A stretch of 64,000 bases of DNA from Malus domestica (lineage: Eukaryota; Streptophyta; Magnoliopsida; Rosales; Rosaceae), in NCBI RefSeq assembly GCF_042453785.1, contig NC_091664.1:29932501-29996500 (forward strand), given 5' to 3'. Made by a program: the position numbers and the translations under genes. Under the pieces are notes generated by a model. That model did no database searches. It was not told the origin of the DNA and worked only from the letters and a program-made list of their open reading frames with translations. Of this stretch, positions 2,196-36,699 are shown in pieces (the first letter of the stretch is position 1; every line of letters begins with the position of its first letter).

Positions 2196-4569
2196 AGGTG
2201 TTGAAGAGAGAAGAGGTTGGATAAATCAAGATCTTAGAAGTGCAAGAAATGAGCTTCTACTGGTAGAGATTCAAGTGTGCTTTGGAACTTAATGTCAACC
2301 TCTATAAAAATCTACACTCGACGGAGCTTCAGAAATCGAAAAGGCGTTTGCTTTCTCAAAAGTTGGGCTGCTCAGAGACCATGAGGGCCGATCTCAGAAA
2401 TCGAAGAGGCACCAGTTTTTTTCAGCCTTGTCAGCATCACATGCACACTTAGCTTTGCTGAAATTACGGGCATTCTGTTGAAGATTTTTGGTGAAGTAGA
2501 AAGCACGTGAATCTTACTGTTCAATCATCCACTCTCTACACACAACATCAACTCATCGGGTACCACATATAACTTTGCCAAAGATCTCTGACAAAGTTTA
2601 GGCACGAGAATTTCGAAGTTCCAGCTACCCTACTATTACCCACAAGAGTAAAGGAACAGCACCACTGCTTGACAACTGGAAAGTCCCTATGTGTGTCAAC
2701 CTCCGTGTTCCGTGGCAAGACAGACTGGCAAGAACGTCCAACATTTACTCACATTCGAGAAAAGACTCCCAACATAATTACTTTCTCAAAAACCGAAACG
2801 GCTCCGCTTTCTGAATCTCGAGAGCCAGACTCCCAACAGGATTACTTTCTTAAAAACCGAAGCGGCACCGCTTTTCGAATCTCGAGAACCAGATCCCCGA
2901 CGGGATTGCTTGTTCGAAAACAGAAGATGCATAGCTCTAAGAACTTCGAGAGCCAGATTTCCTTAGATAAAGCTTGTCTGTAATCTTCACACGCAACATT
3001 AGCTTTCCAGATACCACATACCACTTTTTGAAAGTGCTCTGACAAAGTTAAAACACGTGAAGCTGGCAGCTCCCACTACATTGCTGTGACCAAGAAGGGT
3101 AAAGGAATAACATTACTACTTGCTATTGGGAAATCTCTATATATGTCGACCTCCCTCTTCCACGGACAGGCAACCCTACAAAAATGCTCAACCCTTTCTC
3201 GCATTCGAGAAGGCACCCTCAACATAACCTCTCGAAATACTCAGCTTTATTTCCCCCCTATAATACCTCAGCAAATAAGCCACACCAAGAACAAGAGTAT
3301 CTCATATCATCAGGGTCGAAAGCAAGAGTATCCCATATCATGCTTTCTCCTTGTCCTTGTCTTTATCCTTGTTCACACCTGCAGGACAAGGAAAAAGAGA
3401 GCAGTCAGTCGGAACCTCCAATCTGGAACTGACTGTCTGGGACCTTTGCTTGGTTGCTTACTTAGCATTGCTCTCGAGTACTCATCCTCAACTGCTGTCA
3501 AGATCATGAATTCCTCCGGTAAATACCTCATGACAGTTGATCAGATATTGGTTCTTTACACTGAAGCTGCCAAGCATGGATGAGTCACTATGAAGGAATG
3601 TTCTGAAGGACCATTTAAATGCAAAGGTTGCACACCACTTCTGCCATGCAAAAGATTGAAGCAGAAGGTTCAACGATGAGCTGAAACAGATCACTACAGC
3701 ACGACACCTTTCCATACCACATTCATTATTCTGTCAACAGCAAGAGTATCCCATATCATCAGGGTTGATCATACTTTAGATTTGATGGACTTGTTCTGAC
3801 CCTCAAATTCTTGAGTCGACTCACTAAGGCGTCGTGAATTGCACGTGCCGATTCACCACTCTTGAATCAAATCCTTAAAGATCAAGCCACCAACGGTCCT
3901 TGAAGATATCACAAGCCCGATTCAAGATCAAGTGTCCACCACCCTGAATCAAATCCAGCCTAGTTCAAGAATAAGCCTGTGGAAAGTTACTTTTTCAAAA
4001 GCAAAAGTATTTCATATCATCTCTTCTCCATTTGCTTCTCCTTATCCTTGGTGCTATTTACGACACAAGGAGAAGGAGAACAATCAACAGGAAGCCGAAG
4101 TCGAACCTCTGATCCAGGTTGCTTGCTTGGAAGTCTGATTGCTTACCTTGTCTGTTACCTCATTTGGCAAATCTCCTAGCTCGGCGACTTGGGGGACTCG
4201 TACTATAGGGTTTGTATCGCACTTGACCAAGCCCGAAACTACAAGTAAGCTTCAAGTGAAATTGATACATTACCTTGTGCATCTTCATCGGTTAAAGATA
4301 TCACCCCTAGATGGAGGAAAAGTACTTCCAGAGAAGATGCCACATCTACATATGAGACAGATAAGGTAAGTGAAAATGATACCACACTTCGGTACTTAGA
4401 AGTTTCGTGATTACTCAATGAATTGGATCTTGCAAGTCCCCAACCGAGGAGCTTTTCTCACTCGGGAACTTAGGGGAGCACTATTTGTACCATACTTGAC
4501 CAATCCAGAAACTACTGAGCACCAGTCAACGTTATACCGTCAAGAACCCAGAAGAGCTTCCCTTCAACC

Positions 4570-5789: not shown

Positions 5790-6719
5790 ATGTCAACCAA
5801 CAAAAGCAATAGCCAGATGAGGCTTTCGGACACTCTACCACCACCACTAGTAAAACATGAATCTATTCCTGGTTCCTCATCGGCCCTAGCCGTTACCAAC
5901 CGTTTCACACCATTAGGATCCACAGTTGGCAACTTTCGGCCAAATTACCAAACACCTAGACCAAATTATCAAACGGCATTAGCCAACCCTTATGATCCAT
6001 ATTCATCTCCAACCTATCCCACTTCATCCCAATCTACTAGTTATACCAAAACATCCCCATATGTTAATAAAAACCCAATGGAATACCTTTTCAGTATCCA
6101 TTTCAATATCAACCAAGAACAAGCCCTCGAAAAAATAGCCAAAACAGTGTTTCCACCAAACTTCCATTACCAACCCACAGAATCATATAAAACACTCAAA
6201 TATTACCAAGCCATTCTCATGGAGATAGAATCCATCTCTATCAAACCAATCTTTAGTAAAATCCATGAAAATAAAATCATTTACCATTCCCTTCACATTG
6301 GAAAATTCCTCACTGAAACAGAATGGAGACTCCCTTTTTACCAGCTAAAACCCATTCATTCTCAAAATACATCACTACCCAATAACACTTATGATTATTT
6401 TGATTATATCCAAGCATGGACTAATATTTTTCTTCACCAGACAGCAGACTTTAGTCATTCATGGTTCATAACTTTTGATAGAAATTTCAAATTGAATTTT
6501 CCAGCATGGTTTCCCAAATGGTGGTCAGTTCACAATCTAACAGCTAGTTTGCTACTCGAAGAATTAATGTCAGTTCTTTCAAATGGTTTCCAACAAAAAT
6601 TTGATCGCAGCAGATTCAACTACAGGATTACACTACTCCCATTGTTCATGGCCAAGTACAAGATCCCGTGGATAATGAAGTGGAATTATGAAGTTGAAAC
6701 TGGCGAAGTCTATAAATAG
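5790..6719 (+). pseudogene. Second ORF of the caulimovirid fossil, function unknown
   Basis: This is a 309-residue frame starting 10 bases after the end of the RNase H code. The N-terminal third is rich in Pro, Ser, Tyr and Asn. The remainder is globular with many Trp and Phe residues (for example HSWFITFDRNF and WFPKWWSVHN). Related sequence continues for about 250 bases in the same frame family. Its position after the RT/RNase H frame matches the second ORF of Florendovirus genomes, whose function is not established. It is part of a broken element. Confidence 0.6.
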
Positions 6720-12899: not shown

Positions 12900-15800
12900 T
12901 GAAAGCTTAGAAATCTAAAGAGAGCTCGAAAAGAGAGAAAGAAAATCTGCAACAAACTTTTCTTATTACTGTGAATGAATTACTACAAGAGTCTATCTCA
13001 CTATAAATACAAGTCAGCATAACTAACTCAACTTATACAATCTATTGACACCTGTCACAATCCTGACCACTAATATATGCTAACATTCCCCCTCAATCTT
13101 ATGTCTAAGTGGAACCAAGCATAAGATTGGAACATTGTGTTGTAAACAAAGGAGAACATAAGCCTTTAGTGAAAATGTCTGCATATTGGTCTGTTGAAGC
13201 AACAAATTGCAGAGAAATGAAACATTGTTGAACTCTTTCTCTAACAAAATGACAATCCACCTCTATGTGTTTCGCTTTAGAGTGCAAGATAGGATTAGTA
13301 GTTAAAGCCATGGGGGAAATGTTGTCACAATGTAAGAATGGAGGAGAAAAAGTGTCAATATGAAGGTCTTTCAGAAGTTGTTACAGCCAAACAATTTCGG
13401 CAGTGGTGGTTGTCATAGCCCTGTATTAAGCTTATGTCGAGGATCTGTTAACTATGTGTTGTTTCTTAGAACTCCATGAAACTGGATTGGAGCCTAGAAA
13501 TACAACAAAACCTGTAGTAGAACGCCTATCATTGGGATCACCAGCCCAATCAGCATCAGTGTATGCTTTTAAAACCAATGAACCAGGTCTAAAACAAATG
13601 CCCCAGCCTAAAGTACCTCTGAGATATCATAAAATTCTCTTGACAGCAACATAATGAGATTCCAGAGGAGAATGCATAAATTGGCACATTTGATTCACAG
13701 AATAGGCAATGTCAGGTCTTGTAAAAGTTAAGTATTGTAGGGCTCCTAAATGCTCCTGTAGTGGGTAGGAATCGAGTAACTAGGACTACCATGGTTCAAG
13801 AGTTTCTAATTAGGATGACATGGTGTGGTACAAGGTTTACATTGTAGCATATATATCTTTTGTAACAAATCTTGAACATACTTTGACTGGTGTACAAACA
13901 ATCCCTGAGACAGATAGTCAATTTGCAAGCCAAGAAAATAGTGTAAAATCCCAAAATCCTTCATGTCAAACTCTGTGGTTAACTTAGATATAACTGACTG
14001 AACACAAGTATCCCTATCTCAAGTAAGGATGATATCATCCACATAAAAAAGTAAAACAACTATGTTGTTGCCATCATGCTTAACAAACAATAAAGGATCG
14101 GCATAGGAAGATTTAAATCCCAATGAAAATAAGATAGTAGTGAACCCTTCATTCCAAGCTCTTGGAGCTTGTTTGAGACCATAAAATGACCTTTCTAATT
14201 TGCAAACACACTCTGGGTGGATCTTGTCAACAAAACCTTGTGGCTAGGACATATAGACCTCATCTTCAAGAAACCCATGTAAAAACGCATTCTTGACATC
14301 AAGTTGCTTAAGTTTCCATCCCTGAGTTGCTGTTAAAGACAATATAAGTCTCACAGTGGTTGGTTTCACCACTGGACTGACTATTTCATAATAATCCAAT
14401 CCAACCTCTTGAGAGAATCCTTTGGCCACTAATCTGGCCTTATATCTGGCAACTGACCCATCTGGATGTCTTTTAACCTTGTATATCCATTTACAACCCA
14501 CCAGATTTTTACTTGCAGGTAATGGAACAAGTTGCCATGTGCGTTGCTGCACTAATGCATCCATTTCTTCCTGCATAGCTGATTTCTACTGTGGAGATTT
14601 AGAAGCTGCAGTATAATATTATGGTTCTTTAATGGAATCAGAATGAACTGTAGTATGAAAGACATGCTTCTTCTTAGAAATCATAGATTTAGATCGGGTC
14701 TGCATTGGGTGTAAATTCTGAGAATGCAAGGGTACAAGTTGTAACTCAGTGGCTTGAGAAATAGTAGTATCTGGATGCATGTCTGTACCCCTGGAAGAAT
14801 CTGAGACTAAATTCATTGAGGAATCTGAACTCATAGAAGAATCTGAGGTTGAACTAGAGATGGCAAGAGTTGTGGAGACAACATCACCTTGATTGAGAGT
14901 AGTTGACTGAGTAACATGACTGGTAATGGGTGTGAATGCAGGCACAAAGACACTTGGTAAAGGAATTAGAACTATGGAATGATGCTCAAATGAATTTGTA
15001 TGAGACACAGAGGTTGGTATAGCTGAGGACAAAGATGAGCTAGACTTTATATGTTGTAGCTTTGCTGAACCAGGGAATTGACTTTCATCAAATAATACAT
15101 GCCGTGGCATAATTAATTTGTTATCTTTGACAGAGTAACAAATATAACCTTTGTACTGAGATGCATAACCCAAAAACATGGTCTTGGGATCAAGTTTGGT
15201 TGTTCTATAGGGTTTCAAAGAGGGAAAGCAAGCACAGCAAAAAATGCGTAACTGATCAAGTCTTGGAGTTGATTGCTACAAAGTTTCAAAAGGAGATCTC
15301 ATTAGTAATGTAGAGGTTGACATCCTATTTATGAGATAAGTGGCAATAGTACATGCATGATACCAAAACTTAGAAGGTAAGAAAGCTAGCTACAATAGAG
15401 TAATTGCAGTTTCTACAATATGCCTGTTTTTCCTCTGTGCTAACCCATTCTGCTCAGGGGTATACGGGCAAGATTTTTGATGTGTTATACCTTTCTCCCT
15501 AAGAAATGATTGACAAATGGCATCAATGTATTCCCCACCCCCATCACTCTGTAGAATCTTAATGTGAGCAGCAAAAGAATTCAGTACAAAGGAATGAAAC
15601 TGAACAAAGTGATCAAACACGATAGCTTTATTGATTATTGGAAAAATCCATGTATACCTAGTACAGTCGTCTATGAAAGAGACATAGTATCTATACCCCT
15701 CAATTGATATACAAGGTGCTAGCCCCCATACATCGGTATGTATTATTTCGAATGGAATTACAGATTTTGAAGCATGTAAAGGGAATGGAAGTTTGGTGAA

Positions 15801-32554: not shown

Positions 32555-33506
32555 ACAAAATGGCCGGGAAATGTTCAGACCATGATCTGTGTATTGACCA
32601 TGCCGGGCAGTGCATGGGGATCAATCTTATGCATGGCGCATGCGGCATATATGGGCTACCTTTTGCGAGATTTTTAATGTATCTAGAATCCGTGAGTACA
32701 TAATAGGTTATTACACGAGTGGTCTTTCATGTGTTTCTCTACTTGTATAATAACATATGACGTATGTACTTGTGTTCCGGACACTGAAAAATCTATTCCT
32801 TTGTAGATTTGTTGGCACTTGTTAGAATAAACATAAACCAATAACAAGTTATATGAGCTACTGTTATCAAAACACAAATCATTGTTCATTAAACCAATGT
32901 ATGGAGAAAACCGTACCTGCAAATGAACCAGAACCGGACGCCATGCTCGATTTCTGCAAGAATTCTGCAGTGCACCTTCTCTTCTCTTCAATGTTCAAGG
33001 TTCTCAACTAATAATAGGTATTAGTTCTGAGTAGAGTACACACACTGCGAGAACAGAGGCCACCATATATATACTACATAATCCAAGCCAAATTCTATAA
33101 GGAATTCCCTATTAAAAACCATATAGAAAACCAATTCCTTTTAAATAGTAGTTCAGTTACAATATGGATTCATAAATCCATTCTCAACAAGGCTTTCAGT
33201 TCAATCTCTAATCCTATAACCAAGTTTACAGGTTCATACTCATGCTCATATTCTTACATTCTCCCACTTGAGCAAGTATGGACAAGGAAAACTAGTTCGA
33301 TTAAGATTATAATAGGGTGATCACTAAGCCCTTTGAGCCACATCATAATCAATCAATATGTGCATTTCAAAACACAGAATCTAAAAGCTTACAATCACAA
33401 CCAAAATGCAACTAATGCTTCCAGATTACATATGTTCAATCTACACTTATAACATTATGATCAAACTGATATTAGTGGACCTATATATCCACTCCCACTA
33501 TTTCTA

Positions 33507-33510
<4 letters not shown>

Positions 33511-33555
<45 letters not shown>

Positions 33556-33670
33556 ATATATCCTTCTAATTCACATGAATGCAAACAATTGCTCGAGTCA
33601 AATCACAAAGATCCCCAAGGCATCAAATTAAATTCACAATTACATATATATATATATATATATATATATC
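33511..33670. repeat. (TA)n tracts inside the LTR element
   Basis: TA runs at about 33511-33547 and 33645-33669 in the non-coding part between the captured gene and the 3' LTR. Confidence 0.85.
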
Positions 33671-33877
33671 AGATCAATCAATTACAAAATCAAATCTCTT
33701 AATACAATAAACTAGCTAAAACAGAAAACTTAACTCAAGAGAAGAACTTCATTGCTATACCAGCTCTTTGAACTTCACAATAGCAACACTTTTCAACTTT
33801 ATTATTGCAACTGTCTCTAATAAACTAACACTACTCCCACTGATCAAAAGACTCGAGCACACCCAATCTAGATATCA

Positions 33878-34985
33878 GTTCGTCAGGAAAAAAAAGTCCT
33901 GAACTCCCTCAAAAACTCGTTTCAGATAAGGAACATCCTCAATGTCAGGACAATCATTGCTAATTTGGTCAAAAACTTGAGCAAGAGCAGACCCACCTAA
34001 CCTCTGCTTTCCCTTTGCCAAAACAATGTGAAGCAGCACGCCATCATCCTTGAGCTTTAAATTTGAGGTTACTGTTTTTGTTATGTCAGGAAAAGTGCAA
34101 TAAACACTCATTACAAGATTGGCAGGTGCCTTAACAAACTCGCCTGCAACATGGGCTGCCATGGAAAGACTGTCCCTCCCACCATCAATTGCAATACCAA
34201 GTTCGATCATTACTTCTGAAAGAGCTGTAGCAACATCATACATAGCTGCTCCTTCCCCATTAAGCTTGGTTGCATACATCTAATTCTCGTTGGCTTTAAC
34301 ATCAGATAGAGAAGTGACCTTTGCCCAAACAAGAGTTGTGAGTGCTTCTCCAACAGCTAATCTCGCCATTGCTTTTGGATCCAACAAACCTTTGATTGGC
34401 TGCTCCCCAATGGCACATGCACCTCTAGTCACGTCAGTAAAAGTCTGCACTATTACTGCAACATCAAAGAGAGGAATTTGCAAGGGCCCAACAGCTTGTT
34501 GTTGTGCTACAAGACCTGTAACACACCTGTCTACTTTGGATGTCAAGAAGCGCTTTGAACAAACAGATGGAAGTCTTAACACCCTCTTAAGTGAATCCAT
34601 CACTATTATTCCAGGAGCAATATCAAGTGGTTCTCATGCATCAATCATCCTATGGAATTCAAAACTTTTCTGTGGCATATCACCAAGTACTTTCTCTAGC
34701 TCCAAATCGACGGCAGGAAGAGGGGGAGAGATTCCACTAGATTCACATTTTTTAATAGCTAAGCTATCAATTAAAACAGCATGTCCTTCACCATTTATTG
34801 TTCCAGTAACAGCCATAGAAACCCTTTCTCTTTCACATATTGACTGCAAGAGGTGGCGGCTTTCAGGCTTCACCAAGATTGCATCTTGCTCCTGGTATTC
34901 TGCACCCCATATCTCCAAGACAGACATGGTGTGATCACCAACTACAATTGCCCAGATATCAATATGGCCGCCCTTGGGGTATATA
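33878..34985 (-). pseudogene. Captured FGAM synthase (PurL-type) fragment
   Basis: On the minus strand the pieces read, in gene order: GGHID then VVGDHTMSVLEIWGAEYQEQ; RERVSMAVTGTINGEG; DLELEKVLGDMPQKSFEFHR; SLKRVLRLPSVCSKRFL; DRCVTGLVAQQQAVGPLQIP; GLLDPKAMARLAVGEALT; ELGIAIDGGRDSLSMAAH; QRLGGSALAQVFDQI; VPYLKRVFEGVQ. This is the middle of phosphoribosylformylglycinamidine synthase, the fourth step of purine synthesis (about 1,400 residues in plants). Roughly 370 codons are present with no intron visible, as expected if it came through RNA. It lies inside the LTR element, abutting the copia RT piece. Broken; no function is claimed. Confidence 0.9.
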
Positions 34986-35154
34986 ATTTCCTTAATTTGC
35001 AAACCATATTCTCCTTCCCCCTTTCAATAAATTCAGGGGGTTGAACCATGTAAATGTCTTCTCGAAGATCACCATTGAGGAAAGTCATTTTAACATCCAT
35101 TTGATGCAACTCTAGATCAAAGTGTGCACAACATACAGTGAAGAGATGTCTCAT
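34986..35154 (-). pseudogene. Ty1/copia RT remnant next to the captured gene
   Basis: CCAHFDLELHQMDVKMTFLN and GDLREDIYMVQPPEFIERGK, then MVCKLRKLY, identify the copia reverse transcriptase N-terminal part. It stops where FGAM-synthase code begins. It lies about 630 bp from the primer-binding site, so the region normally holding gag and integrase is gone. Part of a broken element. Confidence 0.8.
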
Positions 35155-36699
35155 GCATGATAACCATCATTCATGGTTTAACAGAAAACATAAAGGTGCA
35201 TTAGCATTCTGCAGATTACAAAATAACTGCAGATAACACATAATTGAACACCCAAAGTCTAAATTACTGCAAAATAGTTTCAATTCAATTGAATCCATAT
35301 AGTTTTGTTATCATAATAAACCTCGACTCAATCATCGGATGAATATTTAAGCAGACAAGAATTATTTATTTATTTATTATTATTTTTTTTTTTTGCAATT
35401 TATGAAGCATACCTTACACAGATCCTTATTTTGAAACAGCGCTGCGGAAAAATTATTCAAATCGATCATATCAATCGCAAGGTTGATGAATTCATAACCC
35501 AGAAGCATATTTTGATGATTGATGTTATTAATCGAAAAACCCCTAATTTGGAAAGAAGACCCTTACCAATGGATTTGCAGGAAATCTAAAGGTCACCAGC
35601 TTTTCCTTGTTTTTTTTTTCTTCAGGTTTTGTCGTTATTCACCAAACCTATATGCCAGAACCCGTGTTCGATTTCCCAATCCTGCAACAATGGTATATTT
35701 TCTTAAATATTATTCATGCTTTTGAACCTATTGGTTTTAATCACATAACTCATAAACTTATAAACCAGGCTCTGATACCACATGTTAGAATAAACATAAA
35801 TCAATAGCAAGTTATATGAGCTACTGTTATCAAAACACAAATCATTGTTCACTAAACCAATGTATGGAGAAAACCGTACCTGCAGATGAACAGGAATCGG
35901 ACACCATGCTCGATTTATGCAAGAATTCTGCAGTGCACCTTCTCTTCTCTTCAGTGTTCAAGGTTCTCAACTAATAATAGGTATTAGTTTTGAGTAGAGT
36001 ACACACACTGCAAGAACAGATGCTACCATATATATACTACATAATCCTAACCAAATTCTATAAGGAATTCCCTATTAAAATCCATATATAAAACCAATTC
36101 CTTTTAAATAGTAGTTCAGTTACAATATGAATTCATAAATCCATTCTCAACAAGGCTTCATATTCAATTTCTAATCCTATAACCAAGTTTACAGGTTCAT
36201 ACTCATGCTCATATTCTTACAGCACTACCTAACAAGCTGCTTGCAGAAGATACATAAAGTACATATTTACATATTAATTGGTTACGCTTGAGTGCAACTG
36301 TATATACAAAATCTTATCTAAATGTATGTATGCATGTATGTGTAGGTGACAAACACTGGGATTGGAGCTCGAGGAACGTCGAGGATTGTTGATCAGTGCA
36401 GCACCGGAGGGTTAGACTTGGATGTACGCTAAAGTGCTTAACACCGACGGGAATGGCAATGCCCAAGGTTGCCGTATCGTCAAGTACAAGTCTACAACTT
36501 TGTCGACTGCGGTGCACTTCTTACATTATTATTAGTAGAGGGAACTTAGTCCTTTTTTGTTGTTGTTTGTTGGTGTGTGTCAAGAACTTAGTTTATTTCT
36601 AATGAATATGCGTCATCGATCTTCCGTTGATGGAATAAATTGAAGTGATTTTGTTTTTTTATTTATATTAATTTAATTTTCCTTGCAAACAGTATGAAA

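Follow-up and report, generated by a model that had tools for sequence, protein, structure and literature searches.

The window examined here is a stretch of 64,000 nucleotides from Malus domestica (C4:29932501-29996500), in a genome that was searched as 651 Mb in 19 contigs. Its subject is a 3,402-bp insertion on the minus strand, a copia-type long terminal repeat (LTR) element whose interior holds a segment of the coding sequence (CDS) of the purine gene FGAM synthase (phosphoribosylformylglycinamidine synthase). Its parts are given below in window positions, together with element coordinates (x), for which the window position is 36221-(x-1). Genes and elements elsewhere are named by contig (C) and, where needed, by fetched locus (L).

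32815..32819, no strand: left copy of the target-site duplication GCACT (sequence)
32820..36221, minus strand: whole non-autonomous copia-type LTR element (LTRs, duplication, primer site, purine tract and two empty paralogous sites)
32820..33258, minus strand: 3' LTR in element sense (LTR alignment, genome family)
33259..33269, minus strand: putative polypurine tract AAGTGGGAGAA (sequence)
33259..33869, minus strand: 3' part, x 2353-2963, with two TA microsatellites (scanned stop-free pieces without a Pfam match)
33870..34995, minus strand: FGAM-synthase coding segment, x 1227-2352, 1,126 bp (host CDS bases 1847-2970; two stops and one 2-nt frameshift)
34996..35128, minus strand: RVT_2 reverse-transcriptase (RT) fragment, x 1094-1226, 133 bp (Pfam match)
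35129..35782, minus strand: 5' leader, x 440-1093 (scanned stop-free pieces without a Pfam match; inner part nearest C8 and C7, outer part nearest C9 and C5s)
35768..35780, minus strand: primer-binding site TGGTATCAGAGCC (sequence)
35783..36221, minus strand: 5' LTR in element sense (LTR alignment, genome family)
36222..36226, no strand: right copy of the target-site duplication GCACT (sequence)

The two LTRs, 439 bp each with TG...CA ends, align without gaps and are identical at 415 of 439 positions, the differences comprising 16 transitions and 8 transversions (Kimura two-parameter distance 0.057), and the pair is bounded by the 5-bp duplication. Just inside the 5' LTR lies the primer site, which we take to be of the tRNA-Met type, while the purine tract abutting the 3' LTR would, from its place and make-up, serve as the polypurine tract. 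The RT fragment matches Pfam RVT_2 (E 5.9e-12). Together, the LTR pair, target duplication, primer site, polypurine tract and RVT_2 fragment place the insertion among the copia-type elements. These 133 bp are all that was recognised of its own gag-pol: a Pfam scan of all 17 stop-free pieces listed on the minus strand (30 aa or longer) gave no further retroelement domain, and 12 of the 17 had no match at E 0.1. Lacking a complete gag-pol, the element is non-autonomous. Its LTR family has at least 41 matches in the genome (40 of 143 candidates scored), and a related element on C10 (L045) carries copia gag, Pol_BBD, gag-pre-integrase, SH3-like and RVT_2 domains. The window element keeps its LTRs, primer site and purine tract, and most likely needed the proteins of such relatives.

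The insertion lies within one of a series of tandem barwin-type genes or remnants, presumably PR-4-like, found at about 25.9-28.7 kb and 36.3-36.5 kb of the window. Its right flank is a barwin-type remnant (Pfam Barwin, E 3.2e-6), and the tandem copy near 26.2 kb matches the same family at E 3.3e-25. Two tandem copies, near 28.3 kb and near 26.1 kb, continue straight through the insertion point and carry no insert; the 3.4 kb is likewise missing from a related stretch on C12 (30.15 Mb), with no alignment at the point itself. A sequence-only reading of the locus had described a pair of 439-bp LTRs, a GCACT duplication, a tRNA-Met primer site, a purine tract, a short copia RT scrap and about 1.1 kb of FGAM-synthase code, all belonging to one insertion. 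Each of these descriptions held, the primer site being putatively of the tRNA-Met type, and the single insertion is further borne out by the two empty paralogous sites.

The FGAM-synthase cargo, its boundaries set by host comparison, is 94.7-94.9% identical to the host genes and lies in the sense direction of the element RNA. Three successive stop-free pieces match TIGR01735 (E 1.5e-36, 3.8e-49 and 2.3e-47; model positions 503-885 of 1307), and the cargo also matches the Pfam AIRS_C and FGAR-AT PurM-N-like domains and FGAM synthases of known structure. A whole-genome search with a 117-residue piece of the cargo (six of six candidates scored) led to six places: the window, three further copies (C7, C8 and C12) and two host genes, one at 2.45 Mb of C4 and one at 27.18 Mb of C3. 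Measured from stop to stop, the host genes form uninterrupted open frames of 1,415 (C4) and 1,414 (C3) codons, and their proteins of 1,414 and 1,413 residues match TIGR01735 above its cut-off over positions 1-1306 of 1307. The earlier description of the cargo as intronless is therefore accurate, but the host genes are equally intronless across the coding frame, so the missing introns are uninformative on an RNA step and intron loss was rejected as proof of capture from mRNA. The case serves as a warning that absence of introns from a fragment in a retrotransposon does not prove passage through RNA if the donor gene is itself intronless.

Searching the genome with the host CDS (22 of 22 candidates scored) returned 28 stretches: the two whole genes, six stretches in the four element copies, one on C13 and 19 others, mostly short (14 on C10, two on C15, two on C1 and one on C2). 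Within the element copies, FGAM-synthase sequence is confined to CDS bases 1847-2970, in whole or in part. Among the remaining stretches, a separate 285-bp fragment at C13:21728918-21729202 (L057:1501-1785) is 95% identical to CDS 2943-3227; it showed no match to the window element within the fetched locus and may belong to a mobile element of a different kind. At C10:2304356-2305412 (L056), four collinear stretches of 78-89% identity form a degenerate remnant that looks like an old, lost FGAM-synthase duplicate. Seven places on C1, C2, C10 and C15 contain a block of about 50 bases (CDS 1458-1506) at 94% identity, and pieces of CDS 1428-1627 are repeated on C10.

The sequence-only reading had asked whether other elements carry the same segment, and the three further copies on C7, C8 and C12 do all adjoin leader sequence of this element. 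In the window, C7 and C8 the cargo borders are identical (positions 2086 and 3209 in L035, the C4 host locus), with the same RT fragment before the cargo and the same 3' part after it. A genome search for the leader/RT join (40 of 297 candidates scored, so that there may be further carriers) found these three as the only matches spanning the join; the others comprised C12, which matches the leader side to position 80, four matches to the leader side only and 32 to the RT side only. On C8 (L038:1675-4969) lies a complete element that inserted independently: GTAAC flanks it on either side, and its LTRs are 96.4% identical. Its own duplication, combined with the same borders, indicates that the chimera transposed after capture, and at least two separate insertions, in the window and on C8, carry the cargo. 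Among the other copies only C8 has a complete LTR pair; the LTRs of the C7 copy are truncated and rearranged. The sequence-only reading was thus right that a host segment had been captured with both borders visible, while its wording that capture had been caught here was too strong, since four copies exist. It had also held that its case would fall if the host locus lacked introns in this part and the segment lay outside LTR copies elsewhere; the host genes do lack introns, but the copies adjoin the element's leader.

The C12 copy (C12:24292527-24293163, in L037) starts in the leader, just inside its primer-site end, and passes from the leader straight into the cargo; no LTR was found at the fetched locus. 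It is followed by what reads as leucine-rich-repeat-like sequence on the other strand. An independent capture, suggested by its different cargo start, was considered but is not favoured. Instead, C12 looks like a truncated derivative, given that it has in common with C7 and C8 a 141-base deletion between CCTGACAT repeats in the cargo (the window copy is without it), that its leader is 94-96% like that of C8 in three of four segments and 88% in the fourth, and that the cargo tree unites it with C7 and C8 at a support of 91.

All four copies of the cargo are decayed. Counted at sites where the two host genes agree, changes in the window cargo comprise 15 synonymous, 31 non-synonymous and one stop (two stops are visible in frame), and those in the other copies are 18:35:1 (C8), 7:33:2 (C7) and 5:9:1 (C12), set against a neutral expectation of 28:69:3 percent. 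The host pair differs in the same stretch by 15 synonymous and 4 non-synonymous substitutions. Stops and insertions or deletions differ between the cargo copies. The cargo is in neutral drift, encodes nothing intact and bears no sign of selection on protein; most likely it does nothing itself. A coding RT-FGAM fusion was rejected for the window copy, whose RT and cargo reading frames are out of register. In the RT fragments of C8 (L038) and C7 (L039) a G run is one G longer than in the window copy and the relatives compared, so that the copies differ in how the RT frame relates to the cargo frame.

A single change sets all four copies apart from both hosts. Of the 19 sites at which the C3 and C4 genes disagree, the copies agree with C3 at some and with C4 at the rest, neither gene being matched consistently, and the cargo tree leaves the host pair unsettled (support 48); capture from one particular host gene is accordingly not favoured. 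The donor was probably older than the duplication that gave the C3 and C4 genes, in a comparison confined to the four copies and the two host genes. Capture would then predate that duplication, and the copies appear to have separated soon after the capture. Substitution rates assumed for dating range from 1.3e-8 to 4e-9. At these rates the LTR distances of 0.057 (window) and 0.038 (C8) would correspond to 2.2-7.1 and 1.5-4.8 million years, respectively. Capture was probably older than the insertion in the window, whose copy would be a later recombinant.

Comparison along the element points to such a recombinant. The window LTRs are 84-89% like those of C9, C5s (L041) and a second C8 element (L047), and 76-78% like those of the cargo-bearing C8 element, which are themselves 96-97% like a C4 element (L046). 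The outer leader (x 440-600) behaves as the LTRs do, at 89-91% with C9 and C5s and 80-82% with C8 and C7. Further in (x 931-1090) the pattern is reversed, with 96% to C8, 95% to C7, 92% to C4 and 76% to C9. Past the cargo, x 2353-2500 is 93-95% like C8 and C7 and 90% like C9, and x 2720-2840 is 94% like L047, 92% like C9 and 85-87% like C8 and C7. In trees of the LTR and of the outer leader the window copy falls outside the C8/C4/C11 group, at supports of 98 and 100. A similar core thus lies between LTRs of different subfamilies, as in LTR swapping, and in our reading the cargo-bearing core has been combined with LTRs of two subfamilies.

Short matches occur at the borders of the cargo. At the RT/cargo (5') border the host shares 4 nt (TTAA) with three of five relatives and 2 nt with the other two, while two of three relatives match it at the cargo/3' border, over 6 nt (ATCTCT) and 5 nt. 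At the window's base composition, a random join would show at least 2, 4 or 5 nt with a chance of 0.18, 0.02 and 0.006, respectively. This microhomology fits template switching, and an earlier publication describes microsimilarities as permitting such switching between LTR-element RNA and co-packaged mRNA (PMC5408686).

Capture of a host-gene segment by the element is well supported. That a host-gene retrocopy came by chance to lie between unrelated LTRs, so that there was no single insertion, is scarcely credible beside the matching duplication, primer site and purine tract, the empty paralogous sites and the second full element on C8 with the same order. As to how capture came about, we consider it likely that a non-autonomous copia-type ancestor took up 1,124 mid-gene FGAM-synthase bases through template switching and that an exchange of LTRs came later. 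Host FGAM-synthase mRNA would have been co-packaged with element RNA, and RT supplied in trans by fuller relatives would have switched onto and off the host mRNA at short matches. At a later time, co-packaged RNAs of two LTR subfamilies may have been reverse transcribed to give the core between different LTRs, and the window copy then inserted into the barwin-type tandem gene copy. Recombination among members of one family and template switching are documented in work on Onsen (PMC5668417) and on Triticeae elements (PMC1950507), respectively. Several observations weigh against this account. The cargo has neither intron loss nor a poly-A mark of mRNA, because the donors are intronless and both ends of the cargo fall within coding sequence. 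Matches of 2-6 nt also arise in DNA end joining, one of the three relatives has none (0 nt) where the cargo meets the 3' part, and about 1 nt is shared, by eye, at the leader/RT join. Within the mosaic, the leader at x 761-930, of which some 70 nt can be aligned, and x 2841-2963, at 85-91% with all matching relatives, do not discriminate; the inner-leader tree groups the window with C8 and C7 at a moderate support of 76 on a short segment; and placement in the x 2353-2500 tree is unsettled (36-68 at the relevant nodes).

The same features bear on entry of the cargo at the DNA level, where end joining or gene conversion would have united a copia element with an FGAM-synthase copy and the chimera would then have retrotransposed in the ordinary way. 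An intronless donor makes genomic DNA and mRNA look alike, and short microhomology, down to the roughly 1 nt at the leader/RT join, suits end joining. Such a route has to account for three joins in one interior (leader/RT, RT/cargo and cargo/3' part) and for a cargo in sense to the element RNA, and the mosaic of LTRs and core makes template exchange during reverse transcription plausible in this family; we hold the DNA-level route to be unlikely. Retention of the cargo for its action, whether as a source of small RNA lowering FGAM-synthase expression or as camouflage against silencing, is more doubtful again. Exact matches to the C4 and C3 genes are found for 350 and 359 of the 1,106 21-mers of the window cargo, and captured sequences in maize are described in a 2026 review as reservoirs of small interfering RNA (PMC13317346). 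Such sharing would at most permit the small-RNA effect on the host gene that the sequence-only reading had suggested. Yet four copies with the segment were found, their changes fit the neutral expectation, and any transcribed retrocopy can in principle yield small RNA. A more elaborate version, in which the cargo would be a module passing between LTR subfamilies, with small RNA from the copies tuning an essential purine gene and full silencing harming the host, seems slightly less probable still. Lower yet stands a useful truncated protein: Met-to-stop stretches of 223 codons (C8) and 164 codons (C7) exist, but stops and indels differ between the copies, their substitutions look neutral beside the 15:4 of the host pair, and the window RT and cargo frames do not join, which makes it very improbable.

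Capture with later LTR exchange is an event of a known kind, that is, Bs1-like capture plus LTR exchange. Du and colleagues reportedly described, in 2010, LTR swapping between autonomous and non-autonomous soybean elements; that case is reported to involve likewise a similar core between LTRs of different subfamilies, whereas the core here bears a host-gene segment. In maize, Bs1 contains pieces of three genes, and its chimeric gene is reported as transcribed and translated (PMC13317346). Both are LTR elements with host coding fragments, and the element described here likewise has a host coding segment between LTRs, an identifiable donor gene and transposition after capture; it differs in that one gene is involved, the fragment is decayed and the donor is intronless. 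The LTR-mediated retroposition by template switching at microsimilarities that Tan et al. 2016 reportedly described resembles the present case in its host segment between LTRs and short border matches, and differs in that here the RNA step is not demonstrable and one interior has three joins (PMC5408686). A survey of rice and sorghum counted 672 and 1,343 LTR-captured genes, with a higher percentage of pseudogenes under neutral selection in rice than in sorghum (PMC3726574). It too concerns host genes taken by LTR elements; being a survey, it differs from the present work, which follows a single case through its borders and its later recombination. Terminal-repeat retrotransposons in miniature (TRIMs) are very small elements with short LTRs, and the window element, at 3,402 bp with 439-bp LTRs, lies outside this size class. 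Gene-carrying TRIMs measure 1,172-1,449 bp, all but two of 30 being reported to have at least two copies, and have in common with the present element the LTR organisation, host fragments and 5-bp duplications (PMC4717578). In the open-licence PubMed Central papers searched, none was found to treat FGAM synthase (or phosphoribosylformylglycinamidine synthase) together with a retrotransposon or LTR retrotransposon, which does not prove that the association is unpublished. The interest of the locus is that, with four copies and two host genes to compare, one fragment can be followed through its capture, its amplification and a later exchange of LTRs.

Elsewhere in the window, a 309-codon open frame lies at 5790-6719 on the plus strand, without a Pfam match at E 0.001, and another retroelement polyprotein fragment, with an SH3-like domain of retroviral-type polymerases, lies at 14619-15218 on the minus strand.

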